From Firmicutes bacterium FC7 (GTDB lineage Bacteria; Bacillota; Clostridia; Tissierellales; Tissierellaceae): a stretch of 64,000 bases of DNA. Location: positions 1 through 64,000 of the forward strand of contig JAKELU010000002.1 in assembly GCA_022760735.1 (NCBI GenBank), written 5' to 3'. How positions within the stretch are numbered: the stretch's first letter is position 1; each line of letters starts with the position of its first letter. A model generated the notes under the pieces. It had not been told where the DNA came from, ran no database searches, and was given only the letters and a program-made list of their open reading frames with translations. Shown here piece by piece: positions 18,403 to 34,913 of the stretch. The position numbers were made by a program, and so were the translations under genes.

Positions 18403-19694
18403 ATGGACTCCTCCTCTGCCTTCAAATTTCCAAATTCCTTAAGCTCAAGAAACTCTTCATACTTTTCTGCAATAGTTTCAAGACACCTATCTAGTGGTAC
18501 TCCTTCTAATAAAACTTGACCAGTAGCTGTCTTGGATCCCACCCTAAATATATTTCTTCTTCTAATTTCAATAGGACTAATTCCTAATTTTTCAGCTAAT
18601 ATATCCATTTGCTGTTCTGCTGCATTTGGCACCTGTGTAGCTCCAAATCCTCTCATTGCTCCAGTAAATGGATTATTTGTATATACTGCATAGGAATCTA
18701 CCTTTACATTTGGAATAACATATGGCCCTGTTGAGTGCACTCCAGCTTTTCTCAATACATTTATAGCCCATGAACAATATGCTCCAGAGTCGCCTATAAT
18801 TTCTGCTTCCATTGCCATAAGATAACCGTCTTTATCTGCTCCTGTCTTATACTTCATTATCATAGGATGTCGCTTTGAATGAGCTAAGAAGGATTCTTCC
18901 CTATTATATATTACCTTCACTGGTCTATTTAAAGTCTTGCTTGCTAAAGCAAGATGAATCTGCATTGTAATGTCCTCTCTTGCCCCAAAGGCCCCCCCTA
19001 TATTGGTATTTATTATTCTAACCTGCTCATCCTTAAGATTTAGAGCCCTTGCTATGATCTCCCTATCATAATGAGGGTATTGAGTAGCCACTACTACTAC
19101 AATTGTTCCATCCTCATCTACATAGGACAATCCTGCCTCAGGTTGTAAAAATGCATGCTCTTGCATATGTGTGCTGTATGTATTCTCAACTATTACTGCG
19201 CAGTTTTTAAAGGCTTCTTCTACATTGCCCTTTCTCAACTTATAATGGTATATAATATTAGATTTATCATCATGTACCTTTGGAGAGTCCTCCTTCATAG
19301 CTTCTACAGGGTCAAATACACCTGGAATCTCAGCATAATTTACTTTTATAGCCTTCATACTTCTAATACAAGCTTCTTCACTTTCACCAACTATAAAAGC
19401 TATAGGATCCCCTATACTTCTAACCTTTTTATCACAGAATACGTTATGATCATGTAAAACTACTCCATGATGATTATAGGGAACATCCTTATGAGTAAAT
19501 ATCTTTACAACTCCATCAACTTTCTCTGCTTCTGTAGTATCAACTTCTATATAGGCATGAGGTGATTCTGATCTAAGGGTTTTAGCATATAACATATTTT
19601 CTAAATAGATATCCTGAGGATAAAGAGCCTTTCCCGTTACCTTTGAATATGAATCCACTCTAATAATATTCTTACCTACGGTATTAAGCTTCAT
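18399..19694 (-). CDS. Xanthine dehydrogenase-type hydroxylase, N-terminal molybdenum subunit
   Basis: 431 aa, first half of the molybdenum-binding region. An aldehyde oxidase a/b hammerhead lies at 15-120 ('KVTGKALYPQDIYLENMLYA', 'HKDVPYNHHG'). The molybdopterin part has 'NIGGAFGAREDITMQ' (Glu at the position that binds the purine in bovine xanthine dehydrogenase) and 'TGAMRGFGATQ' (conserved Arg). It ends with an unstructured 'LKEFGNLKAEEESI', where a one-chain enzyme would continue. With the FeS and FAD genes upstream it forms a four-subunit enzyme that hydroxylates hypoxanthine to xanthine and possibly other purines. Confidence 0.9.
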   Translation of the reverse strand: MKLNTVGKNIIRVDSYSKVTGKALYPQDIYLENMLYAKTLRSESPHAYIEVDTTEAEKVDGVVKIFTHKDVPYNHHGVVLHDHNVFCDKKVRSIGDPIAFIVGESEEACIRSMKAIKVNYAEIPGVFDPVEAMKEDSPKVHDDKSNIIYHYKLRKGNVEEAFKNCAVIVENTYSTHMQEHAFLQPEAGLSYVDEDGTIVVVVATQYPHYDREIIARALNLKDEQVRIINTNIGGAFGAREDITMQIHLALASKTLNRPVKVIYNREESFLAHSKRHPMIMKYKTGADKDGYLMAMEAEIIGDSGAYCSWAINVLRKAGVHSTGPYVIPNVKVDSYAVYTNNPFTGAMRGFGATQVPNAAEQQMDILAEKLGISPIEIRRRNIFRVGSKTATGQVLLEGVPLDRCLETIAEKYEEFLELKEFGNLKAEEESI

Positions 19695-20166
19695 TTTTAG
19701 CTCCCTCCTTTAGGATTTCTATTGCTCTTTCTGCTGCATTTATAGCCTTATTATATCCAGTGCACCTACAGAGATTACCAGATATGCCTTCTCTAATTTC
19801 CTCTCTGTTAGGGTTTGGATGCTTATCCAATAGGGCTTTAGTTGACATAATCATTCCAGGTATACAAAATCCACATTGGACTGAGCCTTCCTCCATATAT
19901 GCTTTTTGGATAGGATGAAGCTCGCCATTTTCCTCAAGACCTTCTATTGTAGTAATATTGGAACCATCTGCCTGGAATGCCATTACCATACAAGAATTTA
20001 CACTTTCCCCATCCATGATAACTGTACATGCACCGCATTCGCCTTCCCCACAGCCTTCCTTAGTACCAACTAAACCCAATTTATCCCTTAAAAGATCTAT
20101 TAGTCTCATATTTGGGTCAATATCAACTTTATAATTAATTCCATTAATTACCAATTGAATAAACAT
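19684..20166 (-). CDS. Xanthine dehydrogenase-type hydroxylase, 2Fe-2S subunit
   Basis: 160 aa with two [2Fe-2S] clusters. The ferredoxin-like cluster is 'GCGEGECGACTVIMDG...NSC' (residues 38-59). The second, helical cluster is 'QCGFCIPGMIM' and 'GNLCRCTGY' (about 98-141). It transfers electrons from the molybdenum site to FAD. The start codon overlaps the stop of the FAD gene (TAATG) and its end overlaps the large molybdenum subunit by 11 bases, so all chains are co-translated. Confidence 0.95.
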   Translation of the reverse strand: MFIQLVINGINYKVDIDPNMRLIDLLRDKLGLVGTKEGCGEGECGACTVIMDGESVNSCMVMAFQADGSNITTIEGLEENGELHPIQKAYMEEGSVQCGFCIPGMIMSTKALLDKHPNPNREEIREGISGNLCRCTGYNKAINAAERAIEILKEGAKNEA

Positions 20167-21041
20167 TATAGAGTCACCTCGTTAAAGTAGCTTAAATTAT
20201 CCTTATATACTTCTTCGAAAAGTGTAACTACAGCTCTTCTCTTATATGGATAAGTAGATCTACCGACTAGTCTTTTATCCATAGAAGACTGTAAGGAACT
20301 TGCAGCTATTTTAAGAATTTCAGAATTAAATCTTTTACCTATTAAGGCCTCCTCAACTTCTCTTTCTCTCATTGGGTATTTCCCAATGGAGCCTGAAGCC
20401 ACCCTTATGTTTTCTATATTAACATCGTCATCTATACCTATTAAACTACTTAAAGTTACTCTGGATATGGCTAGTGCTTTTCTAAGTCCCAACTTACTAA
20501 ATCCAAGTACCTGATTTTTCTTTGGAATTTCAAATTCTATGCTCATTAAAAGCTCATCAGCCCTTAACCTATTATCTTCCTTTTCATTAAAATAATCTTC
20601 TAGCAAAAGCTTTCTATTGCCTCTAAGACTAGATATATTTAATTCTGCTCCAAGAGCTATTAAAGGTGGAATTGAATCTGCTGCTGGCGATGCATTGGCA
20701 ATATTTCCACCAATGGTTCCCTTGTTTCTTATTTGAGGGGAACCTACAAGCCTACAGGCTTTTTTAAATCCATAGAGATTTGTATCAAACAATTCATTTT
20801 CTACTATCTGTGTATAGGTAGTAGCTGACCCTATAATAATTTTATTCTCTTCAACCTGAATTTGTCTTAATTCATCTATTTTGGATATGTCAATAAGCAC
20901 CTTTGGGGTAATTTTACCATTTCTTAAGCCAATTATTATGTCTGTACCCCCTGCTATTATCTTTGCATCTTCCTTATATTGATTAAGCAATTCTAAAACT
21001 TCAGATATAGAGTTTCCTTTAAAAACTTGGTCCAAGGTCAT
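20166..21041 (-). CDS. Xanthine dehydrogenase-type hydroxylase, FAD subunit
   Basis: 291 aa of the CO-dehydrogenase flavoprotein type. FAD-binding loops are 'IIAGGTDIIIGLRNG' (33-47) and 'GTIGGNIANASPAADSIPP' (113-131). A C-terminal CODH_FAD domain is present. It passes electrons to NAD(P) or ferredoxin. First gene of the hydroxylase cluster; its AAGGGG ribosome binding site comes only about 20 bases after the terminator-like hairpin at 21065, leaving no room for a promoter. Confidence 0.93.
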   Translation of the reverse strand: MTLDQVFKGNSISEVLELLNQYKEDAKIIAGGTDIIIGLRNGKITPKVLIDISKIDELRQIQVEENKIIIGSATTYTQIVENELFDTNLYGFKKACRLVGSPQIRNKGTIGGNIANASPAADSIPPLIALGAELNISSLRGNRKLLLEDYFNEKEDNRLRADELLMSIEFEIPKKNQVLGFSKLGLRKALAISRVTLSSLIGIDDDVNIENIRVASGSIGKYPMREREVEEALIGKRFNSEILKIAASSLQSSMDKRLVGRSTYPYKRRAVVTLFEEVYKDNLSYFNEVTL

Positions 21042-21098: not shown

Positions 21099-22433
21099 TT
21101 AGATGAATATTTCCTTTAATACGAATAGTACTGCTAATACATACATAATTGCTGATACATCTTTTGATTTTCCTGTTATAGTTTTTAAGATGACGTATGA
21201 TACCATACCAAATACGATTCCTTCAGCTATACTATATGCAAAAGGCATCATTACTATTGTTAAGAATGCTGGTATAGCTTCTGTAAAATCATCCAAATCA
21301 ATCTCTTTAATAGGGCTCATCATGAACAATCCAACTAAAATTAGCGCTGGAGCTGTTGCAGCACCTGGAATCATACCGAATAATGGTGATAATACAAGTG
21401 CTAATAAGAATAATACTCCTGTTGTTAATGCAGTTAATCCAGTTCTACCACCTTCAGCTACACCTGATGCTGATTCAACATATGTTGTAACTGTAGAAGT
21501 ACCTAAACAAGCACCAACTGTAGTACCTATGGCATCAGCTAAAAGAGCCTGTTTAACTTTTGGAAGTTTTCCATTTTCATCAAGCATATTTGCTTTCGAA
21601 GATACACCTATCAAAGTGCCTAGTGTATCAAAAATGTCAACAAATAGGAATGAGAACATGACTATTAACATATCAAATGAGAAAACATTTGAGAATTCAA
21701 ACTTAAAAGCAACATCAGCTAATGATGGAGGCGCTGAGAATATTCCAAGGAACTGACCATTTGGCATATAGCTTACTCCCATTGGTAAACCAATAAGTGT
21801 TGTAATTATGATACCAAAGAATAATGCTCCTTTTACCTTCTTTGCAAGAAGGAATCCTGTAATTATTAAACCAATCAATGATAATAATGGAGCTGGTTGT
21901 GACAAATCTCCTAAACCAACAATTGTACCACCGCCACCTACTACTATACCTGCATTTGTAAAACCTATAAGTGCAATAAATAAACCGATACCTACAGATA
22001 CAGCTTTTTTCAAATTCATTGGAATAGAATTAAATATTGCTTCTCTGACATTAAAGAATGATAGCAGAATGAATAATATACCCTCTATTAGAACTGCTGT
22101 TAACGCAAACTGCCATGTATGACCCATTCCAAATACTACTGAGTAAGTAAAAAATGCATTAAGTCCCATACCTGGTGCAAGTGCAAACGGATAATTTGCC
22201 ATAAAAGCCATTGCAAAACATGCTATAGCTGATGAAATAGCCGTTGCTGCAAATACTCCTCCAAGATCCATTCCCGTTTCCGATAACATTCCAGGGTTTA
22301 CAGCTAAGATATAAGCCATTGTCATAAATGTAGTAAAACCTGCAAGAATTTCTGTCTTTACGTCAGTTTTGTTCTGCTTCAGTTTAAACTGTCGTTCTAG
22401 AAAGCTTTCATTAGTTACTGCTTTACTTGACAT
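21099..22433 (-). CDS. AzgA/PbuG-type purine permease
   Basis: 444-aa membrane carrier with about 12-14 helices, of the AzgA-like branch of the nucleobase transporter superfamily (hypoxanthine, guanine and adenine uptake by proton symport). Diagnostic stretches are 'EILAGFTTFMTMAYILAVNPG', split over residues 27-47, 'APGMGLNAFFTYSVVFGMG', 'DIFDTLGTLIGVSSKANMLD' and 'TSTVTTYVESASGVAEGGRTG' near 318-338. It follows adenine deaminase by 51 bases, and the two are probably one transcript. It supplies substrate to the whole island. Confidence 0.94.
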   Translation of the reverse strand: MSSKAVTNESFLERQFKLKQNKTDVKTEILAGFTTFMTMAYILAVNPGMLSETGMDLGGVFAATAISSAIACFAMAFMANYPFALAPGMGLNAFFTYSVVFGMGHTWQFALTAVLIEGILFILLSFFNVREAIFNSIPMNLKKAVSVGIGLFIALIGFTNAGIVVGGGGTIVGLGDLSQPAPLLSLIGLIITGFLLAKKVKGALFFGIIITTLIGLPMGVSYMPNGQFLGIFSAPPSLADVAFKFEFSNVFSFDMLIVMFSFLFVDIFDTLGTLIGVSSKANMLDENGKLPKVKQALLADAIGTTVGACLGTSTVTTYVESASGVAEGGRTGLTALTTGVLFLLALVLSPLFGMIPGAATAPALILVGLFMMSPIKEIDLDDFTEAIPAFLTIVMMPFAYSIAEGIVFGMVSYVILKTITGKSKDVSAIMYVLAVLFVLKEIFI

Positions 22434-22484: not shown

Positions 22485-24296
22485 TTAAATTATAGGAGGA
22501 AGAATCCTAAAATTATTTACATCTATTAGACCTTTATCTGTTATCTTCCACGTTGGGCTTGTAGATAGTGATAGGAATGATAGATGCATTAATGGAGAGT
22601 GTATTTTACATCCTAAATCTCTAGCTATTACATTTTCAATCTCTGCAATTTTTTGACTTACTTCATGTCCGTCCAGTTCATCAGTTATAAGTCCACCAAC
22701 AGGCAATCTCATTTCTGATATAACTCTTCCTCTTTTAGCAACTGCAATTCCTCCACCCATTTCTATTACCTTATTTACTGCTACCATCATATCTCTATAA
22801 TTAGTACCAGTAACCAAAATATTATGAGTATCATGAGCAACACTTTCTGCAAAAGCACCATCAGTCAAGCCAAATCCCTTTACAAAAGCCTTGCCTATCT
22901 TGTTACTTCTTCCGTACCTTTCGACACAGGCTATTAATAGCATATCTTTTGAAATATCAGGTTGAGCAATCCCCTGTTGGACTCTAACCATATCTTCATA
23001 TTTTTCAGTTAAATTCTGATCTGGTATTACTCCTATGGCTCTTGCCATAACAGTGCTGCCACTGGCATATATTTCTAAGTCCTTCTCGTTAATAGGACCA
23101 ACTTTTACCGAACACTTTACTTCATCAGGATAAGTATAACTTGGTAAATCTATTAGAAGTTTCCCCTTTGAAGCTACTAGCTTACCTTTAAGTATTACTC
23201 CTTCTACCTTCATTTCCTCTATGTCGCTTATTATTGCTATATCTGCTTGCTTACCTGGTGCCAATACCCCTACATGATCTAAACCAAAATATGTAGCTGG
23301 GTTTATGGTCACCATTTGTATTGCCTCAACAGGGGACACCCCTTGTTTTATGGTTCTTCTTACTATTTCATTCATATGGCCAAGGTTTTCTAAATCATCC
23401 GCAACCATATCATCTGTCGCCAATATACATCTTCTAGAATCCATACCTTCCTCTGTTACAGCCTTAATACACTCAGCCATATTCTTCTGAGTAGAGCCTT
23501 CCCTCATAAACAAGTATACTCCCTGTCTAAGCTTTTCTACTGCTTCAGCCTTGGTAGTAGTTTCATGGCAAGAACACTTTCCACCTGTAGCTATTATGTG
23601 TGCAGCTAATTCCTTACCAAATAGTTCAGGTGCATTTCCATCTACTACCATGTTCTTGCTTCTAGCATAGGTTGTTGAAGCTATTAAATCTGTGATTATC
23701 TCTGGGGTATTTCTATAAACATGTTTAGCATTACTAAAACCTTGTAATTCTCCTATACCAATTATGTTTTTATAATTTAACAAGTCCTCCATATCCTTTG
23801 ATGTAATATCATACCCTGCCGTTTCCAAGTCAGGTGAATCAGGAGTAAGTGCAGGAACTACAAGATAAACATTGTTTGGAACTCTATCTATTTCATCTGC
23901 CATTGCCTTCATTCCAATTGGCCCTAATGCATTTCCTATTTCGTGTGGATCTGCTACTAAAGTTGTTGTTCCTGAAGGTATGGACAATCTTGAAAATTCA
24001 GTGATTGTAAGCATGCTACTTTCAAAATGCATGTGTGAATCAATAAATCCTGGAGAAATATATTTCCCCTCAACATCAATAGCTAAAGTATTTGGCCCAA
24101 TAAGGTCCTTACAATCCCCAACAACTAATATATACTTATCCTTAATAGCAACATCGGCTTTATAGATTTCTCTAGTTAGGACATTTACAACATTACCATT
24201 TATTAAAACCATATCAGCATAGTTGTTACTTCCCATGAGAACATCTACTAACTGCCTATATTCTATTGCTTGCTTAAAGTAATTAGTGCTATTCAA
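22485..24296 (-). CDS. ade: Adenine deaminase
   Basis: Converts adenine to hypoxanthine and ammonia. The product is an amidohydrolase of 603 aa, normal for Ade. Metal-site motifs: 'PGFIDSHMHFESSMLT' (HxH near 92-94), 'VADPHEIGNALG', 'GELQGFSNAKHV', 'CILATDDMVADDL' (Asp). The C-terminal Ade domain has 'GGGIAVAKRGRVISEMRLPVGGL' around 520-542. The start is taken at the TTG giving 'MNSTNYFKQ', six bases after AGGAGG; the longer frame from an upstream ATG contains that ribosome binding site. It directly follows the BMC-P gene, so shell and deaminase share a transcript. Confidence 0.95.
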   Translation of the reverse strand: MNSTNYFKQAIEYRQLVDVLMGSNNYADMVLINGNVVNVLTREIYKADVAIKDKYILVVGDCKDLIGPNTLAIDVEGKYISPGFIDSHMHFESSMLTITEFSRLSIPSGTTTLVADPHEIGNALGPIGMKAMADEIDRVPNNVYLVVPALTPDSPDLETAGYDITSKDMEDLLNYKNIIGIGELQGFSNAKHVYRNTPEIITDLIASTTYARSKNMVVDGNAPELFGKELAAHIIATGGKCSCHETTTKAEAVEKLRQGVYLFMREGSTQKNMAECIKAVTEEGMDSRRCILATDDMVADDLENLGHMNEIVRRTIKQGVSPVEAIQMVTINPATYFGLDHVGVLAPGKQADIAIISDIEEMKVEGVILKGKLVASKGKLLIDLPSYTYPDEVKCSVKVGPINEKDLEIYASGSTVMARAIGVIPDQNLTEKYEDMVRVQQGIAQPDISKDMLLIACVERYGRSNKIGKAFVKGFGLTDGAFAESVAHDTHNILVTGTNYRDMMVAVNKVIEMGGGIAVAKRGRVISEMRLPVGGLITDELDGHEVSQKIAEIENVIARDLGCKIHSPLMHLSFLSLSTSPTWKITDKGLIDVNNFRILPPII

Positions 24297-24315
24297 ACGT
24301 TGACCTCCTTTCTCC

Positions 24316-24594
24316 TTACTCATCTAGGTCATGTATATCAATATTGTCTACAATTCCAATAATTGATGCATCTATAGGAGCATCCAACTTTCTAGCAGCA
24401 ATTCTACCTGCAGTACCAGTTGTATATATAACTATTTCTCCTATTCCTGCTCCTACAGTATCAACGGCAATTATTGGATCACCTTTAGGTTCCATATTAA
24501 ATTTGAGAGGCTGAGTAATCATTAGCTTGCTTCCTACCAATTTTTCATCTTTTCTTGTTGCGACTACTGTTCCAACTACTTTTCCTATATGCAT
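24316..24594 (-). CDS. BMC-P pentameric shell vertex protein (EutN/CcmL family)
   Basis: 92-aa bacterial microcompartment vertex protein. It shows the EutN/CcmL pattern: 'MHIGKVVGTVVATRKDEKLVG', split over residues 1-21, then 'IAVDTVGAGIGEIVIYTTGT' and a C-terminal 'IDASIIGIVDNIDI'. Five subunits cap each vertex of the shell. It is the only pentamer gene in the window, which is enough to close one icosahedral shell type. GAAAGGAGG precedes the start. Confidence 0.96.
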   Translation of the reverse strand: MHIGKVVGTVVATRKDEKLVGSKLMITQPLKFNMEPKGDPIIAVDTVGAGIGEIVIYTTGTAGRIAARKLDAPIDASIIGIVDNIDIHDLDE

Positions 24595-24609: not shown

Positions 24610-25329
24610 CTACCTTATTTCGATGCGAATTCCTAACTCCCTAGCTTTATCCTTAGCTAAAGGAGTTATTAATGTCCCTTTATTTAAAACTAGTACCTTT
24701 TGAGCATTATCCATATTTAAAATATCTTTTTCTGTAATTAACTTCTTATCTTGACTTGTATCTGATTTTACTTCAGCTTTAACTGTCTTTTTATTTTCTA
24801 TTTCTATAGCACCCATTTTTAAAACCTTATCTATATGACCTTCTATAATCTTGGTCATCTCAACAGATTTAGATTTGACCCCCATATAATGTTTTACTGA
24901 GTTAAAGCTAACATACACTGGCTTTCCCATGTAAAGATAGGACCAGATTAAATTTGAAACAAAACTATCTATCATACCTGTTGAAACCTTAGATAAGGTG
25001 TTCACTGTTATATTAGGTGCTACTAAAATTGAATGCTCTTCAACAATAGACTTTAGATTAGCAATATCCTCCTCTTTATAAATCCTTGTAGGCTTTATAA
25101 AATCAATTATTCTACTTGTGTCTATTAATCTTTCTGCCATAAAGGAAAATCCCAAGGATATATCATATTTATCCTTTAACTTTTCAATGAAATTAAGGCT
25201 TTTTGATATATCCAGATTTGAACCATTAAAAACAACTAAACAATTTTCTTTAAAACTTGAGGACTTATTGCTAATGATACTACCAGATATTCTATCTAGT
25301 ACATTATTAGTTAGATTTGAATAGACCAT
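24610..25329 (-). CDS. BMC-associated flavoprotein with EutQ-like C-terminal segment
   Basis: 239 aa. Residues 45-165 resemble the HFCD/flavoprotein fold (UbiX, Dfp): 'ILVAPNITVNTLSKVSTGMI' matches the usual 'vaPaTanTiaKia.Gi.D', then 'GKPVYVSFNSV'. A charged linker follows. The last 45 residues, 'KKLITEKDILNM' and 'GTLITPLAKDKARELGI', resemble the short N-terminal segment of EutQ-type microcompartment proteins. Such proteins occur in several BMC loci with unsettled roles. Here it may bind FMN, recycle prenyl-FMN or help assembly. It lies between BMC-H and BMC-P genes, 15 bases before the latter. Confidence 0.7.
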   Translation of the reverse strand: MVYSNLTNNVLDRISGSIISNKSSSFKENCLVVFNGSNLDISKSLNFIEKLKDKYDISLGFSFMAERLIDTSRIIDFIKPTRIYKEEDIANLKSIVEEHSILVAPNITVNTLSKVSTGMIDSFVSNLIWSYLYMGKPVYVSFNSVKHYMGVKSKSVEMTKIIEGHIDKVLKMGAIEIENKKTVKAEVKSDTSQDKKLITEKDILNMDNAQKVLVLNKGTLITPLAKDKARELGIRIEIR

Positions 25330-25346
25330 CTATTACCACTCCAGTA

Positions 25347-25625
25347 TTAATCATACTGAGATAGAATCACTCTTTCTACCTCTGCATGAGGTCTTGGTAT
25401 TACGTGAACTGAATGAAGTTCTCCAACTGCCCTTGCTGCTTCTGCACCTGCGTCTACAGCTGCCTTAACTGCTCCTACATCTCCTCTTACCATAACTGTT
25501 ACAAGACCGAAACCTATCTTTTCATATCCTACTAACGTTACATTTGCCGCCTTAACCATTGCATCTGCTGCCTCAATACTACCTACTAATCCTTTAGTTT
25601 CAACTAAACCTAATGCTTGACTCAT
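25347..25625 (-). CDS. BMC-H hexameric shell protein 3
   Basis: 92-aa single BMC-domain shell protein, the most canonical of the three: '[20 protein letters not shown]', then '[20 protein letters not shown]', then '[12 protein letters not shown]'. The pore loop is Lys-Ile-Gly-Phe-Gly. Six copies form a tile with a central pore. The start is the second of two adjacent ATG codons, eight bases after AGGAGG. Likely the main facet protein. Confidence 0.97.
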
Positions 25626-25664
25626 CATTTTTCCTCCTTTTTATTAATTAGTAACTTAACCTAA

Positions 25665-25697: not shown

Positions 25698-26054
25698 TTA
25701 ATCCTTACTATCAAGGTCCTCTTTTTCTTCAACTTTAACTTTCTTTTCTTCCTTCTTCTTCAAGTTTTTAGAGAATTTTTCTATAAGCCTATCAACCTCT
25801 TCATGAGGTCGTGGTATTACATGACTAGATATTACTGTGCCAACTCTATTGCCAGCTATGACTCCAGCCTCTACAGCTGCCTTTACTGCAGCTACTTCTC
25901 CTGCAATATTAATTGTTACACCTACAGCTTTGTCCACACCTATTACCTTTTCTACTCCAATTAAGGTAATGTCAGCTGCTTTACTAGCTGCATCCAAGGC
26001 TGTAACAGCTGTTGTCAATCCACGTGTCTCTATAAGCCCTAGTGCTTTATTCAT
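25698..26054 (-). CDS. BMC-H shell protein 2, variant pore loop and charged C-terminal tail
   Basis: 118 aa. The BMC fold is clear ('ALGLIETRGLTTAVTALDAA', 'AAVKAAVEAGVIAG', 'SSHVIPRPHEEVDRLIEKF'), but the pore region reads 'VEKVIGVDKAVGVTINIAGEV', about 3-4 residues longer than in the sister proteins and lacking the usual small-residue pore. A 25-residue Lys/Glu-rich tail follows the fold. A changed pore suggests a different passenger, and the tail may face the lumen or cytosol for docking. Its role is inferred. Confidence 0.95.
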   Translation of the reverse strand: MNKALGLIETRGLTTAVTALDAASKAADITLIGVEKVIGVDKAVGVTINIAGEVAAVKAAVEAGVIAGNRVGTVISSHVIPRPHEEVDRLIEKFSKNLKKKEEKKVKVEEKEDLDSKD

Positions 26055-26074: not shown

Positions 26075-26302
26075 TTAACGGCCATTTTTAATATAGTTAA
26101 CTGCTTCATCAAGGGACATTATTTTTGCAGAAGTATTTTCTACAACTGCCTTTTTATCACCATGAATTATTTCCTTGATAAGACTAATTTGCCTGTCATC
26201 TAAATTGCCTTCAACTTTTGAAAAGCCGCTATTTGTGTACTTATTGCTTTGAACATTGCCTTTTAATTTACTTTTCATATCAATCATAGCTAAGGGGTTC
26301 AT
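26075..26302 (-). CDS. Small protein encoded within the BMC operon, 75 aa
   Basis: I do not recognise this family. It is soluble, with a polar, disordered N-terminal half ('MKSKLKGNVQSNKYTNSG') and a C-terminal half likely to form two helices ('LDDRQISLIKEIIHGDKK', 'MSLDEAVNYIKNG'). It is translated from an ATG eight to nine bases after AGGTGG, immediately behind a BMC-H gene and 20 bases before the next. Conserved position inside the shell block suggests an assembly, cargo-linker or minor lumen protein. Confidence 0.7.
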   Translation of the reverse strand: MNPLAMIDMKSKLKGNVQSNKYTNSGFSKVEGNLDDRQISLIKEIIHGDKKAVVENTSAKIMSLDEAVNYIKNGR

Positions 26303-26314
26303 TTGCTTCACCAC

Positions 26315-26578
26315 CTAAAATATTTTCTCAACTTCATCATGAGGCCTTGGTATAACATTAGCTGAAATAACCTCTGAAACTTGAGCAGCTCTTTCCTTTC
26401 CAGTATCAACAGCTGCCATTACAGCTGCTACCTCACCTGTTACTGTTACCGAAACAAGACCAGAGCCTACCAACTGAAAGTCTAGTATTTTTACATTTGC
26501 AGACTTTAACATTGCATCTGCGGCTTCAATGGCTCCTACAAGACTTCGTGTTTCCACCATTCCTATTGCTTCTCTCAT
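26315..26578 (-). CDS. BMC-H hexameric shell protein 1
   Basis: 87-aa single BMC-domain protein: 'AIGMVETRSLVGAIEAADAM', pore region 'FQLVGSGLVSVTVTGEVAAV', end 'SANVIPRPHDEVEKIF'. The pore has Gly-Ser-Gly, the type seen in shells that pass small polar metabolites. It starts three bases after the UbiD stop codon, so the decarboxylase and shell are tightly coupled. Confidence 0.97.
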   Translation of the reverse strand: MREAIGMVETRSLVGAIEAADAMLKSANVKILDFQLVGSGLVSVTVTGEVAAVMAAVDTGKERAAQVSEVISANVIPRPHDEVEKIF

Positions 26579-26581
26579 TTA

Positions 26582-27937
26582 TTACACCTCCAGGTTCGGG
26601 AAGTATTTCCTAATATCAATCGTTTCATATCCTGGTATCCTAACACGTTCAAACCTTCCATCTGTGTTTAAAGGTTTTGTTGCGTCTATTCCTATCTTGT
26701 CTGTTACCCCTCGTAGATCATGAGAAGGTTCCAGAGATGAACCTAATGCCCCAGGAATAATTACTACATCGTGACTTGCTTGAGCTCTAGTTGTAATTGC
26801 CCATTCTATTTCCCTAGGATTATAAATATCTACATCATCATCTACTATAACAACTTGTTTAAGATCCTTATTTAAGCCTAATGATGCAATGATAGCTGTT
26901 TTTGCTTCCCCTAGTCTTGTTTGTTTCATGGATACAACAGCATTAAATCTATATCCTCCACCTTCTGTCACATAGATATCTTTTATGGTGGATATCTGAT
27001 TTTTTAAGTAAAAGTACAACTCCATTTCCCTTATTAATCCATTAGTCAGGTGTTCTTCTTCACAAGGAAAGGCAGTTTCATATATTGGATTGTTCCTATG
27101 GGTAATACAGTCAATTTCTATAATAGGTTGAGGGGCTTGCTTACCATAATAGCCCATAAGCTCTCCAAATGGACCTTCTAACTCTCTCCTACCAGCTACA
27201 ATTCTACCTTCTAGTACTATCTCTGCATATGCTGGTACTAGGATATCATTGGTCTCACATTTCACAAGCTCCAATGGTTCCCCCCTTAGGGCACTATCTA
27301 TTTCATATTTATCTACTCCATAGGTTCCACTAGGATATTGAGATGCTAGTAAAAATTGTGCATCATACCCTAAAACTATTGCTACATCCAATGATTTGCC
27401 TTCTCTTTCTAACTCTAAGAAATCATTTGTTAACTTATATGAACCTATTAGTGCAGATATTATATTTCCTCTATTTACTTGCATACGTCTTACCGATGTA
27501 AAATGTCTCTTGGTTTCAGGATCCCTTATAACCATTACACCAGCTGTTATGAAGTTTGAAGAATCCAATTCATTAAACCTATTAACTGGTAATATCTTCA
27601 TAATATCAATATTTCTTGTTATTATATTTTCCTTAACAGGCCCAGTATTGACTACCTTATATGGTTTAGGAGATACAAGAGCTTCCATGAATTTATAGTT
27701 TCTATCTTCCTTTGTACAGCCAATAAGATCAAATAATATATCCCTATTACCATATAATCCACCTACAGATCTTATATTGCTGTTTTTTACCTTGTTAAAG
27801 AGAATAGGCATCTTATTATTAAAATGCTTTAAAACTGCTCCCATCTCGTAGTTATAATCAACTTCTCTATTACACTCTAGTAAGTTATTAGAGGCTCTTA
27901 ATCTGTCTAGAGTATATCTAAGCATTTGACGCTCCAC
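26582..27937 (-). CDS. UbiD-family prenyl-FMN decarboxylase, candidate 4-amino-5-imidazolecarboxylate decarboxylase
   Basis: 451 aa. UbiD marks: 'HFTSVRRMQVNRGN' near 145-158 (the conserved Arg region) and 'EIVLEG' at 239-244 with 'ELEGPFGELMGYYG' at 252-265 carrying the acidic active-site residues. 'YETAFPCEEEHL' and 'VVIVDDDVDI' are typical of the family. UbiD enzymes decarboxylate or carboxylate unsaturated and heteroaromatic acids with prenylated FMN made by UbiX, encoded next door. In this operon the expected substrate is 4-amino-5-imidazolecarboxylate. GTG start, eight bases after GAGGAGG; an ATG four codons later is possible. It directly precedes the shell genes, suggesting it is cargo. 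Confidence 0.9.
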   Translation of the reverse strand: MERQMLRYTLDRLRASNNLLECNREVDYNYEMGAVLKHFNNKMPILFNKVKNSNIRSVGGLYGNRDILFDLIGCTKEDRNYKFMEALVSPKPYKVVNTGPVKENIITRNIDIMKILPVNRFNELDSSNFITAGVMVIRDPETKRHFTSVRRMQVNRGNIISALIGSYKLTNDFLELEREGKSLDVAIVLGYDAQFLLASQYPSGTYGVDKYEIDSALRGEPLELVKCETNDILVPAYAEIVLEGRIVAGRRELEGPFGELMGYYGKQAPQPIIEIDCITHRNNPIYETAFPCEEEHLTNGLIREMELYFYLKNQISTIKDIYVTEGGGYRFNAVVSMKQTRLGEAKTAIIASLGLNKDLKQVVIVDDDVDIYNPREIEWAITTRAQASHDVVIIPGALGSSLEPSHDLRGVTDKIGIDATKPLNTDGRFERVRIPGYETIDIRKYFPNLEV

Positions 27938-27978
27938 CTATCTAACCTCCTCTCTTTTGCATCATATTGATAAGTTAG

Positions 27979-28536
27979 TTACTGTCCACTCCATCTTTTT
28001 ATTAAATTGTTATCTATACCAAACATATCTAGAATTCTACCCGTCATATTTAATACAATGTCCTCTAAGGAGTCAGGATGGTTATAGAAGCCTGGACTAG
28101 GAGGGAAAATAGTCACACCAATTCTAGATAATTTCAACATATTTTCCAGGTGGATTGGACTTAGTGGTGTTTCTCGTGGGACTAATATTAGCTTTCTGCC
28201 TTCCTTGATGGCTACATCACAAGCCCTAGATATAAGAGAATCAGAGAAACCGTTTGCAACACTTGCAAGAGTCTTCATAGAGCATGGGACTACTATGGTT
28301 CCATCCACCTTAAAAGAGCCGCTAGCTATAGGTGCTGCAAAGTTTTTATTATCGTGATAATATGTAGCCATGCTCTTTAGTTGGTCAAGGCTTATTCCGC
28401 ATTCATGATTCATTACATATTCGCCCATGGTTGAGACTACTAAATGAGTTTCTATATTTAATTCCTTTAAAGCCTTCAAGAGTGAAACACCGTATATAGC
28501 TCCGCTGCCTCCTGATATTCCAACCACTATTCTCAT
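27979..28536 (-). CDS. ubiX: UbiX-family flavin prenyltransferase
   Basis: Makes the prenylated FMN cofactor for the neighbouring UbiD protein from FMN and dimethylallyl phosphate. 185 aa, normal. Motifs: 'VGISGGSGAIYGVSLLKAL' at the N-terminus (FMN loop), 'VVPCSMKTLASVANGFSDSL' near 81-100 and 'LVPRETPLSPIHLENMLKLS' near 137-156. AAGGAG lies nine bases before the ATG. A 22-nt perfect palindrome separates it from the upstream amidase gene. Confidence 0.94.
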   Translation of the reverse strand: MRIVVGISGGSGAIYGVSLLKALKELNIETHLVVSTMGEYVMNHECGISLDQLKSMATYYHDNKNFAAPIASGSFKVDGTIVVPCSMKTLASVANGFSDSLISRACDVAIKEGRKLILVPRETPLSPIHLENMLKLSRIGVTIFPPSPGFYNHPDSLEDIVLNMTGRILDMFGIDNNLIKRWSGQ

Positions 28537-28592: not shown

Positions 28593-29204
28593 TTATCTAA
28601 CCTTATTTTCTGGATCTCCTCCACCAACCCATGGATCCAATCCTTTTTCCCATGCATCCTGATATTCAGCTATTGTCATTACCTTAGTGAATATACTTAA
28701 ATCCTTTAATCCCCACTCATGCATTTCCTTAGTCTTAGAATCAACACCATCACTTAAGGTAATAACCTTATATGCTCTAGCCAATGCATCTGTTGCAGTA
28801 CTTCTAACACAGACATTAGTCCATGTTCCAGTAACTACTACTGTATCTATATTTTCTTCTCTTAGGTATAAATCTAAATCTGTATACGCAAATGCACTAT
28901 GTCTTCTCTTAGGAACAACATATTCGTCACCTTCAGGAGCAAGCTCATCTATAATTTGTGAACCCCATGTTCCAGCAACTGCATGAACAGGACGAACCTT
29001 GAAGTCTGCATCGTTTTTACGATGTGCTTCCTGTATGTGAACTATTTGTATATCATCTTTACCTTCTGCTCTTCTTGCTCTAACCCACTTAAATAATTCC
29101 TGTAATCTTGGAATTATTCTTCCAGCTCCTTCACAATAAAGAGCTCCTTTTGGATTAGCAAAATCATTTAACATATCAATTACTAAAATCGCGTGTCTTG
29201 GCAC
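28593..29204 (-). CDS. Isochorismatase-fold amidohydrolase, candidate ureido-imidazolecarboxylate hydrolase
   Basis: 203 aa with the Asp-Lys-Cys triad of the cysteine hydrolases: D10 ('LVIDMLNDF'), K99 ('VVPKRRHSAF') and C132 ('GTWTNVCVRSTATDA'). This family includes N-carbamoylsarcosine amidase, ureidoacrylate hydrolase and biuret hydrolase, all of which cleave carbamoyl-amines. In this operon the matching step is hydrolysis of the ureido group of 4-ureido-5-imidazolecarboxylate to amine, CO2 and ammonia. The start is the GTG giving 'MPRHAILVID', seven to eight bases after GGGGG; the longer open frame has no ribosome binding site. Confidence 0.88.
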   Translation of the reverse strand: MPRHAILVIDMLNDFANPKGALYCEGAGRIIPRLQELFKWVRARRAEGKDDIQIVHIQEAHRKNDADFKVRPVHAVAGTWGSQIIDELAPEGDEYVVPKRRHSAFAYTDLDLYLREENIDTVVVTGTWTNVCVRSTATDALARAYKVITLSDGVDSKTKEMHEWGLKDLSIFTKVMTIAEYQDAWEKGLDPWVGGGDPENKVR

Positions 29205-29281
29205 TTTATTTCCCCCTTTATTTAAACAATTAAAATAATTCATGTAATTTTGATGAAATATCGAAATCAAAATTTTTTATC

Positions 29282-30880
29282 CTAAAAAGTTATTTGCTTA
29301 GGTAATTGTTGAATGCTTTGTCTCTTTATCCATTGACCAAAGCCTGGTTTTGCAACTATACCCTTGATGCCTCTTATATGCTTATCAATAACTTCTGGAT
29401 GATTTATTCTATAGCTATTTAGATATTCAGCACTATAAAGATCAGGATAATTCTTGAATTGTTCTGGATATTTTTCCTCTACTCCTTCAGGGAAATTATG
29501 AACAATTCTTTGTAGCTCTTCGTCAGTTAATTCTGCTAAGGAGCTTTCTTCTACATCTTCAAATACTAAGTGTCCACGTACTATTGTCTTTGCAACTTTG
29601 CCCTTCAGCTTCATCCCTTCTAATGGAGTATATCCACACATTGAAGCTTGCTCTTTTGGATCGATTACCCATTCTTTATCTAAATTGATTATTGTGAAGT
29701 CTGCATCTGATCCTATGAACATAGCACCTTTCTTAGGATATAGACCATAATGGATTGCCGCATTTTTACTTAATATATCAACTAACTTTGAAAGTGATAT
29801 TCTTCCCTTGTTATAGCCTTCACTTACTAATATAGGAACCATTGTTTCAACGCCTGGGATTCCAGGGAACGCTGTCCATACGTTCATGCCTTCTTTGGCT
29901 TTTTCGCTTTCAATTTCATAAGGCGCATGGTCAGTAGCTATAAAGTCTACACTTCCGTTATTTAATCCTTCCCAAAGCTCTTCATTATCCTTCTTTGTTC
30001 TTAGCGGTGGAGCAATCTTTGCAAATGCACCGTATTTAGACATTGCATCTTGATAGTTAAGAGTTAAATAGTGTGGACATGTTTCACTTGTAACATCAAG
30101 TCCCCTCTTCTTTGCTTCTCCTACCAGTTTAGCTCCAATTCCAGTACTCATATGAACTATATGAAGTCTTGCGCCACTTGCTTCTGCAAAGCTTATTCCT
30201 AATTCTATAGCAACCTTCTCAGCAAGTTCTAATCTAGCCTCTGCCCAAGCAGGACCATCCATTCTTCCTTCTTTTTGGAACTCTTTTACATAATAATCAC
30301 ACATTGCAAAGTTTTCAGCATGGATACCTATTGGTAATCCTGTTTTAGCTACAGCTTTAAAAGCTTCGTACATTTCTGGATCTGTTACTCTTGGGAAAGT
30401 AGGAACTGATGGAGTCATATAGGCCTTATATGCAACTACTCCAAAATCTGCCTGTTCTTGAACATGATCTAGCCATCCTTCTCTTACATCTTCGCCAGTT
30501 ACTCCGCCCCATAATGCAAAGTCTACAAGAGCCTGTGGTTGTACTAGGTCAACTTTAAGTTGTAGTTGCTCAGCACTTCTTACTGATGGTACTGAACAGC
30601 AAGGCATGTCAATAACTGTAGTAATTCCACCTCTTGCTGCCGCAGCTGAACCTGTAAGGAAATTTTCTCTGTGTGGGAAACCTTGATACATGAAATGGGT
30701 ATGGGAATCTATACAACCTGGTAAGGTTAAGTGGCCATTTGCATCAATGATCTCCTTTGCATCAACATTTTCTATTGAATCTACAAAACCAGCTATCTTC
30801 TCATCTTTCACCAAGATGTTTGTCAGTATAGTATCATCGCCCTGAGGTATTCTTGCGTTTTTAATAATTACATCGTACAT
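29282..30880 (-). CDS. Hydantoinase/allantoinase-type cyclic amidohydrolase, candidate xanthine ring-opening enzyme
   Basis: Binuclear-metal amidohydrolase that opens cyclic amides or ureides. Metal ligands: H60 and H62 ('IDSHTHF'), the carboxylated Lys152 ('VVAYKAYMTPS'), H187 ('IHAEN'), H243 ('HIVHMST') and D317 ('ATDHAPY'). At 532 aa it is about 70 residues longer than dihydropyrimidinases or allantoinases; residues 455-532 form an extra tail that ends in a basic amphipathic stretch 'QWIKRQSIQQLPKQI'. First gene of the BMC operon, preceded by GGGGGAGG. In context, hydrolysis of the pyrimidine ring of xanthine is the best guess; allantoin or dihydropyrimidine are alternatives. Confidence 0.88.
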   Translation of the reverse strand: MYDVIIKNARIPQGDDTILTNILVKDEKIAGFVDSIENVDAKEIIDANGHLTLPGCIDSHTHFMYQGFPHRENFLTGSAAAARGGITTVIDMPCCSVPSVRSAEQLQLKVDLVQPQALVDFALWGGVTGEDVREGWLDHVQEQADFGVVAYKAYMTPSVPTFPRVTDPEMYEAFKAVAKTGLPIGIHAENFAMCDYYVKEFQKEGRMDGPAWAEARLELAEKVAIELGISFAEASGARLHIVHMSTGIGAKLVGEAKKRGLDVTSETCPHYLTLNYQDAMSKYGAFAKIAPPLRTKKDNEELWEGLNNGSVDFIATDHAPYEIESEKAKEGMNVWTAFPGIPGVETMVPILVSEGYNKGRISLSKLVDILSKNAAIHYGLYPKKGAMFIGSDADFTIINLDKEWVIDPKEQASMCGYTPLEGMKLKGKVAKTIVRGHLVFEDVEESSLAELTDEELQRIVHNFPEGVEEKYPEQFKNYPDLYSAEYLNSYRINHPEVIDKHIRGIKGIVAKPGFGQWIKRQSIQQLPKQITF

Positions 30881-31100: not shown

Positions 31101-31796
31101 TTGGGTCTTAAGCTTATAGATCTATCTCAGGAAATTTATGAAGGTATGACAATATTTCCAATACATCAAAAAACTTTTATAATGACCAATCAAACCCATG
31201 AGCAGAATATGAAGAATACTGGAAGTAAGACCTTAGGTTTTTCAGCTAGAAACTTGCTTATAAGTGAGCATGCAGGAACCCATAGTGATGGAGTTTATGA
31301 GTACAACCCTAAGGGACCTACCATCGATAAGATGCCATTAGAATATTTCTGGGGTAGTGCAATCTGTCTAGATGTTAGTCATATTAGGTATCCAAATTAT
31401 TTTGATCCAAAGGATTTAGAGGAAGCTCTTAGACGATCAGGTCAGGAAATTAGAAAGGGCGACATAGTTCTTCTTTACACAGGACATCATGACAGACACT
31501 TCGGTACTGAAATGTTCCAAAAAGAATATGCAGGGCTAAGCTATGAAGGAGCTAAGTGGCTAGCTGAAAAAGGAGTAGTAAATATAGGGGTAGATGCACC
31601 AGCTGTTGATTTAACACCGGATGACTTAGATTTTTCTGCACACCTAGTATGTGGAGAATACAATATTACAAATACTGAAAATCTATGTAACTTAGATAAG
31701 CTTGTAAATAAGAGGTTCTTGTACATAGGACTGCCACTTAAGATAAGAGATGGTACTGGATCACCAATTAGAGCTGTAGCATTGGTTGAGGAGTAA
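31101..31796 (+). CDS. Cyclase-family (kynurenine formamidase-like) hydrolase
   Basis: 231 aa, metal-dependent hydrolase of the cyclase/isatin hydrolase family. It opens 'LKLIDLSQEIYEGMTIFP' and carries the metal motif 'SEHAGTHSDG' (HxGTHxD) near residue 54, then 'VLLYTGHHDRHFG' and 'LAEKGVVNIGVDAPAVD'. Family members hydrolyse cyclic or N-formyl amides. Start is the TTG at 31101, about seven bases after AAGGGGGGA. It is divergent from the BMC operon and shares its control region, so it may open 4-imidazolone to formiminoglycine or act on a later intermediate. That role is inference. Confidence 0.87.
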   Translation: MGLKLIDLSQEIYEGMTIFPIHQKTFIMTNQTHEQNMKNTGSKTLGFSARNLLISEHAGTHSDGVYEYNPKGPTIDKMPLEYFWGSAICLDVSHIRYPNYFDPKDLEEALRRSGQEIRKGDIVLLYTGHHDRHFGTEMFQKEYAGLSYEGAKWLAEKGVVNIGVDAPAVDLTPDDLDFSAHLVCGEYNITNTENLCNLDKLVNKRFLYIGLPLKIRDGTGSPIRAVALVEE

Positions 31797-31801
31797 AAAC
31801 A

Positions 31802-31842
31802 AAAGATAAAAGAATTACTTTCCAAGTAATTCTTTTATCTTT
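31802..31842. terminator. Bidirectional terminator, cyclase gene / pucR
   Basis: A 19-bp near-perfect stem around a TCC loop, A-rich on the left and T-rich on the right. It overlaps the last codons of pucR. Confidence 0.85.
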
Positions 31843-33485
31843 AATGCTATTTCTAGATTTAATCGATTATGTGGATTTTCCAAGTCCATTCCTGTTATTT
31901 CATTTATTCTATTTATTCTATATAGTACTGTATTATAGTGGGTAAATAACTCCTTTGATATTTTAGTTAAATTGCCATTGTTCTTAAAATAAACCTCAAG
32001 AGTTCGTATTAATTCTGTAGCCTTTTTTCTATCATAGTCTACTAGCGGCTTCAAAGTAGTATTGTAAAAATCCTCTAATTCCTCATATAAATAATCCTGT
32101 GATAATATCTTAAAAATTCCTAACTCATCATATGTAACAACTGTTTTATCAGTAACTGATTTACCAATTCTAACTGTTCTCACTGCATCATGAAAGCTCT
32201 TGTGAACATTCTCAAGGTCTTTATAGACTCTTCCAACCCCTACTTTTAAGTCAATATTCTTATACTTGTCCTCAAATATACATTGTAATTTTGAATTAAA
32301 ATTTTGAACCTTTGCCTTTATATTTTTATTCTCCGAAAATCCGAGTAATACCTGTATACCATTAGTCTTAGTTGATACTATTCCTTCTAGTTTATAGTAA
32401 GCCATCAAATCTTCAATAGACGTAACAAAGGTACTAATCAAATCCCCCATACAATCCATTTCATCGTAATCTGCATTTTCTTCGCATTTAAATTTAAAGC
32501 TCATTACCTCTATTAGGTAATAATTATCTTCTTTAAGGTTAAAAAACTTGGCTCTATCTAGGGCTTTTTTCTTTCTTTTTGCATCTTGGGATACTAAGTC
32601 CTCGAAAAAATCTGATCTATATTTAATTTCTACTTCCTTTACAGATAGCTCCTGTAAAATTGATAAGGATATGGTTGTCGAAGCACTTTCTATTATTGCT
32701 AAGTCAAAACCACCAAGAGGCATATGAGTAGCCCAGGTAAACATGTGGCCATATATATTGTCCCTTAGTATAATCGGCATAATCATCCTCTTAACAAATT
32801 TACCACCTATAAGAACCTTATCCTCATCAAGTCTCTTAAGTTTGTCTCTCTTGCTTCCAGATTCATAGAAGTTATTTACTTCCGTCAGAAGTTCTTTTCT
32901 TATTGATTCACTTGTCTCTCCAAGCTGCTCATAGGTTTCATTTGAAAAGACAAGGTTTAGAATTACAGGGTTTCGTATATTATCCTGAACAATCTTTAAT
33001 ACTTCATTGATTCCTTTTCCTTCTAGCATTATATTCATCAACTTCTCATGAACCTTTTCAATGCGTTCCAATAAAGATGCCTGCTTATTAAATATTTCCC
33101 TAATTGCAATCATCATGATATCAGATAGAGGTATTGATTGATGAATCTCTATAACTGGAAAATTCAATTTGTTTGCATACTCAATTACTTCCAGTGGTAA
33201 ATTTTCTAGATAAGGTGAAATCTTAATTCCTATTCCTGCCAGCTTGTTTTCAACACATACCTTAATTAGTTGTTTTTGAGCCTTAATATTATCATCTCTA
33301 AAGAAGTAAGCAGTGGTTAAAAGAAACTCACCTTCTGCAATCCAATCAAGAATATCAGGGTCAGCCATGATATTTACCCTGGATATGGTATTTCTTACTC
33401 CTCTAAATCCTGCTATAAGAGTGCAATTTTTCATAACATCAAGCTTCAACATGTCCTCTACACTGATACCATTTTTCCTAGACAC
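31815..33485 (-). CDS. pucR: PucR-family purine catabolism regulator
   Basis: 556 aa. An N-terminal PucR ligand-sensing domain ('SVEDMLKLDVMKNCTLIAG', 'EFLLTTAYFF') occupies 1-125. The middle region (about 270-420) is GGDEF-like. The C-terminal CdaR-type helix-turn-helix is 'NLTKISKELFTHYNTVLYRI' followed by 'RINEITGMDLENPHNRLNLEIALK', split at residue 526. B. subtilis PucR controls purine degradation genes. Located between the guanine deaminase and BMC operons on the same strand as guanine deaminase, it is the likely regulator of the island. Confidence 0.93.
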   Translation of the reverse strand: MSRKNGISVEDMLKLDVMKNCTLIAGFRGVRNTISRVNIMADPDILDWIAEGEFLLTTAYFFRDDNIKAQKQLIKVCVENKLAGIGIKISPYLENLPLEVIEYANKLNFPVIEIHQSIPLSDIMMIAIREIFNKQASLLERIEKVHEKLMNIMLEGKGINEVLKIVQDNIRNPVILNLVFSNETYEQLGETSESIRKELLTEVNNFYESGSKRDKLKRLDEDKVLIGGKFVKRMIMPIILRDNIYGHMFTWATHMPLGGFDLAIIESASTTISLSILQELSVKEVEIKYRSDFFEDLVSQDAKRKKKALDRAKFFNLKEDNYYLIEVMSFKFKCEENADYDEMDCMGDLISTFVTSIEDLMAYYKLEGIVSTKTNGIQVLLGFSENKNIKAKVQNFNSKLQCIFEDKYKNIDLKVGVGRVYKDLENVHKSFHDAVRTVRIGKSVTDKTVVTYDELGIFKILSQDYLYEELEDFYNTTLKPLVDYDRKKATELIRTLEVYFKNNGNLTKISKELFTHYNTVLYRINRINEITGMDLENPHNRLNLEIALKIKELLGK

Positions 33486-33499
33486 AATACCACCTCAAC

Positions 33500-34801
33500 C
33501 TAACAATTGGGAATTAACTGTGTATTTATTAAAAAAGGTTTATATACTTTCTTTCCTTTTACAAATCTATCAATTATATTTTCTCTAGACCCTTCATAAA
33601 TAAATTTTTGAAGTTTTTCTTCTGGGGTTAACGTTTTCAAATATGCTAAATTATCAACGTCTATTACAAGTAAATCACACTCATATCCTTCCTCAAAACT
33701 ACCTACATTTCCAAAGAAGCTTCCACCACCCTTTGTAGCTAAGAAGAACACTTCAGATAAGGTTAAAGGAGCTAGTTCCTTGTTGCTCTGTAGCCAAACC
33801 ATCTTAGAAGTTTGCATGGCACCAACCATAACCTGAGGCATGCTAATTGTATGTCCACCAGAAATATCTGAACCAAGTCCTACTTTTACACCTTGATTCA
33901 AATACTTTCTTATAGGGCTTAATCCGCTGGAAAGATTAAAGTTAGAATGTGGACAATGTGCTACATATACTCCATTTTTAGCCATTAATTCAGTTTCTTC
34001 ATCTGTATTGTATACACAATGGGCCATAATGGTTTTTGTTTGTCCAAACAAATTGAATCTATCATATACTGATGCATAATTCTTTGATTCAGGATATAAT
34101 TCTCTAACCCATTCTACTTCTGATGTGTTTTCATTTAGATGTGATTGTACAGGGATATTATACTTTATAGCAAGCTTTCCTAGTTCTGTAAGTAGCATAT
34201 CTGTGCAAGTTGGGATAAATCTAGGTGTGATTATTGGTTTAACTAAATCCGAGACGTCTTTAAACTCAAGTATAAATTCTTCTGTTTCGATTATTGATTG
34301 ATAAGAATCTTCAATCAAAGCTGGTGCACTATTTCTGTCCATATTTACTTTTCCTACTAAAGCACCAAGTCCCGATGCTATAAACATATCCATAAGTAAT
34401 TTTGTGCTTTCTAAAAATATGGTCGAATATACAGAACATCTAGTGGTACCCTCTGCCCAGAGAGCATTAATAAATTCCTCAAATACTCTCCTTGAATATT
34501 CTAAATCAGAGTATTTACTTTCTTCTGGAAAAGTATATGTATTTAGCCAAGGAATGAGTTCCTTGTCCATTCCCAAGCCTCTATTAGGATACTGTGGTGC
34601 ATGAAGATGGACATCTACAAATCCTGGTATAATTATTTTACCAGAATAATCATAAAATTCATAGCATTTGTATAAATTTTCTAATTTGTCTGTTATTTTT
34701 ACAACATGTCCGTCTTCTACAATGAGATAAGAGTTTTCATATATTTCAAATTTATCCTTTGTTGGAGTATGGATTATGTCGCCTTTAAATACTGATTTCA
34801 T
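33500..34801 (-). CDS. guaD: Guanine deaminase
   Basis: Converts guanine to xanthine and ammonia. 433 aa amidohydrolase with the guanine-deaminase signature 'PGFVDVHLHAPQYPNRGLGM' followed by 'WLNTYTFPEE'. Further metal ligands are in 'VQSHLNEN', 'TIMAHCVY' and 'GLGSDISGG'. The start is the ATG giving 'MKSVFKGDI'; a GTG one codon upstream is equally well placed after GAGGAG. pucR follows 14 bases later. Alternative: the enzyme could also act on 4-aminoimidazole, the one deamination step without another candidate. Confidence 0.94.
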   Translation of the reverse strand: MKSVFKGDIIHTPTKDKFEIYENSYLIVEDGHVVKITDKLENLYKCYEFYDYSGKIIIPGFVDVHLHAPQYPNRGLGMDKELIPWLNTYTFPEESKYSDLEYSRRVFEEFINALWAEGTTRCSVYSTIFLESTKLLMDMFIASGLGALVGKVNMDRNSAPALIEDSYQSIIETEEFILEFKDVSDLVKPIITPRFIPTCTDMLLTELGKLAIKYNIPVQSHLNENTSEVEWVRELYPESKNYASVYDRFNLFGQTKTIMAHCVYNTDEETELMAKNGVYVAHCPHSNFNLSSGLSPIRKYLNQGVKVGLGSDISGGHTISMPQVMVGAMQTSKMVWLQSNKELAPLTLSEVFFLATKGGGSFFGNVGSFEEGYECDLLVIDVDNLAYLKTLTPEEKLQKFIYEGSRENIIDRFVKGKKVYKPFLINTQLIPNC

Positions 34802-34913
34802 CACATTTATCACTCCTCAAAATAATATATGAAAGGATATGTTAAAATAGTACCAAGTAAATTATAGAAGAAATTGTAAAACATTAATATATGAAAACTC
34901 TACAAAAGTGCCA

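Follow-up and report, generated by a model that had tools for sequence, protein, structure and literature searches.

In the genome of Firmicutes bacterium FC7, a ubiX/ubiD gene pair beside BMC shell genes very probably encodes the CO2-releasing step of a xanthine-degrading organelle, as judged from gene content and gene order. The main reading, to which we assign a probability of roughly 0.88, is that the BUF1/Xau BMC degrades xanthine anaerobically and that holo-UbiD, with prenyl-FMN made by UbiX, decarboxylates 4-amino-5-imidazolecarboxylate. In the proposed pathway, xanthine would first pass through 4-ureido-5-imidazolecarboxylate to the UbiD substrate by the action of the dihydropyrimidinase-like and the isochorismatase-like enzyme. 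UbiX would make the prenyl-FMN that UbiD takes up, and the holo-enzyme would turn 4-amino-5-imidazolecarboxylate into 4-aminoimidazole and CO2. The adenine-deaminase-like enzyme would then convert 4-aminoimidazole into 4-imidazolone, which the cyclase-family enzyme would open to formiminoglycine. In their abstract, Tong et al. 2023 reportedly name a prenyl-FMN decarboxylase alongside four hydrolases.

The first-pass annotation had named the UbiD/UbiX pair as the 4-amino-5-imidazolecarboxylate decarboxylase, a proposal that is supported by the conserved operon, the clade to which UbiD belongs, its intact catalytic triad and its being the sole UbiD of the genome. The role is not new, as this kind of locus had been given the same step in 2019: in the Xau section of Ravcheev et al. 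2019 (PMC6620236), the only decarboxylase of the Xau locus, Amet_4581/XauD, is placed at step 4 of xanthine degradation. The Xau compartment is called type BUF1 elsewhere (PMC8156839), a type named in Axen 2014 and Sutter 2021, and a 2025 paper (PMC12507026) credits Tong et al. 2023 with identifying a gene cluster for the xanthinase pathway. We infer the substrate of the FC7 UbiD with support from these published assignments. The enzyme assignment is a wider-sample confirmation of a role already proposed and reportedly shown, and its value lies mainly in that support; the conclusion on UbiD is chemically sound and already in the literature, and the main interest of the locus lies in a small ORF between two shell genes and in variant loci.

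A BUF1/Xau locus in the FC7 window

The window, that is, the whole 64,000-nucleotide stretch of FC7 DNA analysed, contains a locus identified by its gene families and gene order as a xanthine-utilisation BMC of type BUF1/Xau. All of its genes lie on the minus strand except that for the cyclase-family hydrolase. The order begins with guanine deaminase (33500..34813; TIGR02967, 375.9 bits, cut-off 375.4) and a PucR-type purine catabolism regulator (31815..33485; PF07905, 105.1 bits), followed on the plus strand by the cyclase-family hydrolase, the proposed 4-imidazolonase (31101..31796; PF04199, 122.1 bits). This last ORF can be read in a longer form from 30939, but the stretch that precedes the TTG at 31101 is probably spurious; an N-terminal extension was ruled out, the frames of relatives having stops upstream of approximately residue 50.

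Next comes a dihydropyrimidinase/allantoinase-like amidohydrolase (29282..30880), which scores 354.3 bits with TIGR03178 (cut-off 357.85) and is proposed, with gene order also considered, to be the xanthine amidohydrolase (xanthinase). This protein is approximately 532 aa long here and in many relatives, versus approximately 472 aa in, for example, Caloramator loci. The longer and the shorter enzymes share a C-terminal motif. The tail was set aside as a targeting signal, since this motif also closes the shorter homologues and resembles the usual tail of dihydropyrimidinases. The isochorismatase-like hydrolase (28593..29270), proposed as the 4-ureido-5-imidazolecarboxylate amidohydrolase, has biuret amidohydrolase and RutB as its best matches, both below cut-off, and comparison with homologues suggests that its true start lies about 22 codons downstream of the listed TTG. 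It is followed by the UbiX flavin prenyltransferase, the predicted maker of prenyl-FMN (27979..28536; 185 aa; TIGR00421, 248.2 bits, cut-off 108.9), and by the UbiD-family prenyl-FMN decarboxylase, XauD (26582..27937; 451 aa, GTG start).

The shell genes begin with BMC-H1 (26315..26578; PF00936, 92.4 bits), after which come the small ORF, a candidate low-complexity linker protein (26075..26302; 75 aa from an ATG, or 79 aa from an upstream GTG), BMC-H2 with a charged C-terminal tail (25698..26054; PF00936, 80.4 bits) and BMC-H3 (25347..25628; PF00936, 106.3 bits), the most conserved shell protein, with 81–98% identity across Xau loci. A BMC-associated flavoprotein-like protein (24610..25329) scores 49.4 bits with TIGR02536 (cut-off 152.6) and 25.0 bits with PF02441 (cut-off 22.7), and is followed by the BMC-P pentameric vertex protein (24316..24594; PF03319, 108.1 bits). 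The locus thus holds three PF00936 genes and one PF03319 gene, and the 2.5-Mb genome has no PF00936 match elsewhere.

Further along lie an adenine-deaminase-family enzyme, proposed as the 4-aminoimidazole deaminase (22485..24323; TIGR01178, 493.2 bits, cut-off 472.5), a xanthine/uracil-type permease (21099..22433; PF00860, 161.5 bits) and subunits of xanthine dehydrogenase (17404..21041; XdhB/XdhC/PucD-type families). The adenine-deaminase-family gene is present in every sufficiently long Xau locus and in all three variant loci described below. Two genes (17404-19694, minus strand) together encode the molybdenum subunit of xanthine dehydrogenase; the same split is found in relatives, which rules out a sequencing error.

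As a whole, family profiles and gene order recover the xanthine pathway enzyme set of Xau/BUF1, and no aldehyde dehydrogenase was found among the proteins scanned at 15179-36425. A formimidoyltransferase was not found beside the locus. Three genes with the formiminotransferase N-terminal domain (PF07837) lie elsewhere in the genome (G000:C44:59002; G000:C1:30081 and 439124), and judging from this domain they could take the pathway product onward.

Conservation of the UbiX-UbiD-shell gene order

UbiD ends at 26582 and BMC-H1 starts at 26578, in agreement with the 3-base distance given by the first-pass annotation, and ubiX is directly upstream of ubiD, as it had stated, at a spacing of 41 bases. 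The order UbiX-UbiD-BMC-H was observed in 20 named loci of other genomes: 19 in which UbiD has 53–71% identity, and one from Coprococcus, whose UbiD has 38% identity and which shows the same arrangement as the closer loci. Scanning of genome contigs with UbiD yielded 46 related loci, and every Xau locus with enough sequence to show it has UbiX immediately upstream of UbiD. The adjacency is not due to chance, because the order recurs across other genomes.

In a sample of Clostridia, 13 of 391 genomes carry a UbiD with more than 50% identity; shell genes adjoin it in all 13, and the cyclase-family enzyme is present in 12 (E < 1e-100). Among 249 Tissierellales genomes, 46 match UbiD at E <= 1e-60, or 45 when the genome with a UbiD of 38% identity (G398) is omitted. 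BMC shell genes occur in 45/45 of these UbiD-positive genomes versus 46/204 of the others (Fisher p = 2.5e-24), a value that is uncorrected for shared descent and overstates the evidence because related genomes are not independent. A listed shell gene lies on the same contig within 4 kb downstream of UbiD in 43 of the 45 genomes, the fragment G579 being included by virtue of its own shell gene. When UbiD places rather than genomes are counted, a same-strand shell gene lies within 4 kb downstream at 44 of 47, the exceptions being G164, the second copy in G576 and G398. G164 counts as a 44th genome, since shell genes adjoin UbiD in its locus (L051), where the contig ends, and one shell gene overlaps the end of the extra, partial UbiD copy on G576 contig C20 (L102).

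No shell-less member of the UbiD clade was found in the collections and samples searched. The first-pass annotation had pointed to close homologues in aromatic-acid operons as evidence against its proposal; in the sampled collections there were none, every homologue with at least 51% identity being located in an Xau-type BMC locus. The first homologues beside aldehyde/alcohol dehydrogenase, CoA-ligase and TRAP-type genes appear at approximately 40–43% identity. These data bear on the alternative in which UbiD serves another aromatic- or furan-acid pathway and its place in this operon is accidental, which would accord with the furandicarboxylate decarboxylase HmfF being its nearest solved relative. 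We regard this as extremely unlikely, and the conserved linkage brings it close to refutation: UbiD is strictly linked to Xau genes in all loci at or above 51% identity, and HmfF-group relatives fall outside the Xau clade, in unrelated neighbourhoods.

Clade and active site of the BMC-linked UbiDs

The FC7 protein scores well above the cut-off of the UbiD profile TIGR00148 (322.9 vs 244.85 bits), and it is the only match in the genome, with no second UbiD. Its AF2 model (pLDDT 91.5) has the UbiD fold, with a TM score of 0.94 to PtHmfF (6H6V). The E(D)-R-E catalytic triad described in PMC8988006 is represented by R151, E254 and E259, which correspond to R155, E261 and E266 of AnInD and are invariant in the BMC-linked clade; the counterpart of HmfF R304 is R303. 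In the tree, the BMC-linked UbiDs lie on one side of a single branch (support 99/97), and the neighbouring group holds PtHmfF. Fifteen positions are conserved in the BMC-linked clade yet different from five HmfF-group sequences, and the clade-specific residues at conserved positions include R150, S166, K210, G262, F290, N299 and H406. This combination of clade and active-site pattern fits an enzyme with the same chemistry and a different substrate, the identity of which lies beyond such data.

It could be argued that UbiD works at the preceding step and decarboxylates 4-ureido-5-imidazolecarboxylate, the ureido group being removed afterwards. Gene order does not fix reaction order, the sequence of ureido hydrolysis and decarboxylation being unreadable from the genes, the isochorismatase-like hydrolase could take either compound, and the clade-specific UbiD residues indicate just a pocket unlike that of HmfF. 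The classical pathway, as given in the Xau section of PMC6620236, places the amidohydrolase step first and decarboxylation after it, and we consider the reverse order very unlikely.

Variant loci without xanthinase

Three loci, two from Tissierellales (L104 in G492 and L105 in G502) and one from Coprococcus (L032), combine the adenine-deaminase-like enzyme with UbiX, UbiD and the shell, and neither xanthinase nor xanthine dehydrogenase was found beside UbiD in any of them. The best xanthinase matches in the variant genomes have 31–42% identity, versus 72–86% for the listed full-length orthologues. The Xau clade includes the UbiDs of both L104 and L105. The cyclase-family enzyme was found in L105 and L032 and was not seen in the stretch of L104 that was read. 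The remaining genes differ among the three: L104 has two isochorismatase-like genes besides an amidase and a TRAP binding protein, L105 has an M20 amidohydrolase together with an AbgT transporter, and L032 has ABC-type ATPase transport genes along with a creatininase-family protein, a DUF1989 protein and an ArgE/DapE-type hydrolase.

Because the variants retain the shell, UbiX/UbiD and the deaminase without xanthinase, the constant core of the compartment may run from the UbiD step onward, and judging from gene content the entry route may change from locus to locus. These loci look new, and they suggest that the core of the compartment may be used for substrates besides xanthine.

Possible encapsulation of UbiD and proposed purpose of the shell

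The first-pass annotation had suggested that a prenyl-FMN enzyme is BMC cargo here. The shell-gene neighbourhood agrees with this suggestion, but none of UbiD, UbiX and the isochorismatase-like enzyme showed an encapsulation peptide, in the form of a terminal amphipathic helix with linker. UbiD and HmfF align over their full length, and no terminal extension of UbiD or UbiX was found among relatives. UbiD is a putative cargo, its physical encapsulation being inferred from gene neighbourhood. The N-terminus of the flavoprotein-like protein resembles an encapsulation peptide by eye, with a hydrophobic moment not clearly greater than that of shuffled sequence.

The lack of a peptide on UbiD and UbiX would also be expected if the shell enclosed some steps of the pathway and left UbiD outside, in the cytosol; for comparison, the Xau section of Ravcheev et al. 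puts xanthine dehydrogenase and formimidoyltransferase outside the shell (PMC6620236). We consider a cytosolic UbiD rather unlikely, as UbiD and the first shell gene are neighbours in the loci read, and the shell, UbiX/UbiD and the deaminase have stayed together in the variant loci, from which xanthinase has been lost. If UbiD is indeed inside, the small low-complexity linker between BMC-H1 and BMC-H2 would be a candidate means of its entry into the shell.

The named carriers of the Xau locus belong mostly to anaerobic lineages, and protection from oxygen would therefore have little to do. This weakens the earlier suggestion that the shell shields prenyl-FMN from oxygen and light; the accompanying suggestion, that the shell acts on the CO2 equilibrium, fares no better, as CO2 held in would oppose decarboxylation. 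Further, the HmfF-group UbiDs of the sample function with no shell around them. Oxygen and light sensitivity does occur in the family, in that AnInD is inactivated on exposure to air and light and PtHmfF and AroY are reported to be O2-sensitive (PMC8988006); even so, we consider either purpose improbable for this shell. The instability of 4-aminoimidazole would provide a simpler reason, and it appears more likely that the shell holds this compound between UbiD and the deaminase than that it shields prenyl-FMN from oxygen.

A small ORF between BMC-H1 and BMC-H2

An ORF of at least 45 codons is present in the gap between BMC-H1 and BMC-H2 at 70/70 loci, a count that includes some genomes fetched twice and the Coprococcus ORF, which is unrelated in sequence; on average, the ORF covers 88% of the gap. 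After duplicates and the Coprococcus ORF had been dropped, 50 distinct sequences remained. An N-terminal NPL-type motif is found in 41 of these, and the sequences share a central leucine-rich segment and a third common motif, [hydrophobic][TS]L[DE][DE][LA]. The third motif occurs once in 30 sequences, twice in 15 (e.g. L109, L110 and L052), three times in 3 (L107, L011 and L017) and not at all in 2, so most short forms have one copy. The total of 69 copies compares with a mean of 5.1 in shuffled sequences, a contrast that is partly circular because the pattern was derived from the same sequences.

An HMM profile of the small ORF matches 43 of the 249 Tissierellales genomes; 42 of these hold the Xau UbiD, with the match located in the shell gap, and the remaining match (G524) is weak and has internal stops. 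In G613, G492 and G502, divergent copies were recognized solely from their position. The dN/dS values range from 0.16 to 0.71 (seven measurable pairs), and searches of Pfam, NCBIfam and PDB families gave no match. The AF2 model of the protein (mean pLDDT 68.6, pTM 0.25) has three short helices, H3-15, H36-46 and H64-72, and most copies lie near or below the disorder boundary in charge-hydropathy. An amphipathic N-terminus acting as an encapsulation peptide was considered and dropped, the N-terminal hydrophobic moment being no greater than that of shuffled sequences (median p 0.42), so that "encapsulation-peptide-like" describes an impression by eye only.

A small conserved ORF that has no family match and is specific to Xau genomes in the order searched looks new. 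Its sequence features suggest a candidate linker or scaffold that may help to pack enzymes into the shell, and, if true, a linker protein missed by family libraries could explain the entry of enzymes without targeting peptides. A broader model, which we offer tentatively and hold possible rather than probable, is that this linker ties peptide-less enzymes, including UbiD, to the shell via its short repeated motifs, and that the core of the compartment is the UbiD-deaminase-cyclase segment, fed by xanthine in the majority of lineages and, in the variants, by other aminoimidazole precursors.

Comparison with known systems

Like CsoS2 and CcmM/CcmN of carboxysomes, the putative linker is a low-complexity product of a shell operon and has short conserved motifs, which are present in two or three copies in some of its long forms. 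It differs from them in showing no sequence match in Pfam, NCBIfam or PDB, and most copies are only 70-125 aa.

Among characterized UbiDs, PtHmfF, a 2,5-furandicarboxylate decarboxylase (6H6V), is the closest solved relative, sharing 41% identity, a TM score of 0.94 and the same triad; it belongs to a separate clade, from which the Xau UbiDs are set apart by the 15 clade-specific positions, and, unlike the Xau UbiD, the HmfF-group relatives inspected have no shell or xanthine genes nearby. AnInD, an indole-3-carboxylate decarboxylase (7P9Q), belongs to the same family, has the same triad and also acts on a heteroaromatic substrate, but shares 27% identity, and the AnInD substrate residue D169 has no equivalent in the Xau UbiD at that column of the alignment.

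The closest system is the Xau/BUF1 locus of Ravcheev et al. 2019, the Xau section of which makes no mention of UbiX or of a small ORF between shell genes. The formimidoyltransferase, which in FC7 is represented by the three homologues away from the locus, is part of only some known Xau loci and is also missing from others, according to the same section (PMC6620236). In both FC7 and the locus of Ravcheev et al., one cluster combines the shell, xanthine dehydrogenase, ring-opening hydrolases, an amidohydrolase, a decarboxylase and a permease, and the proposed pathway is the same.
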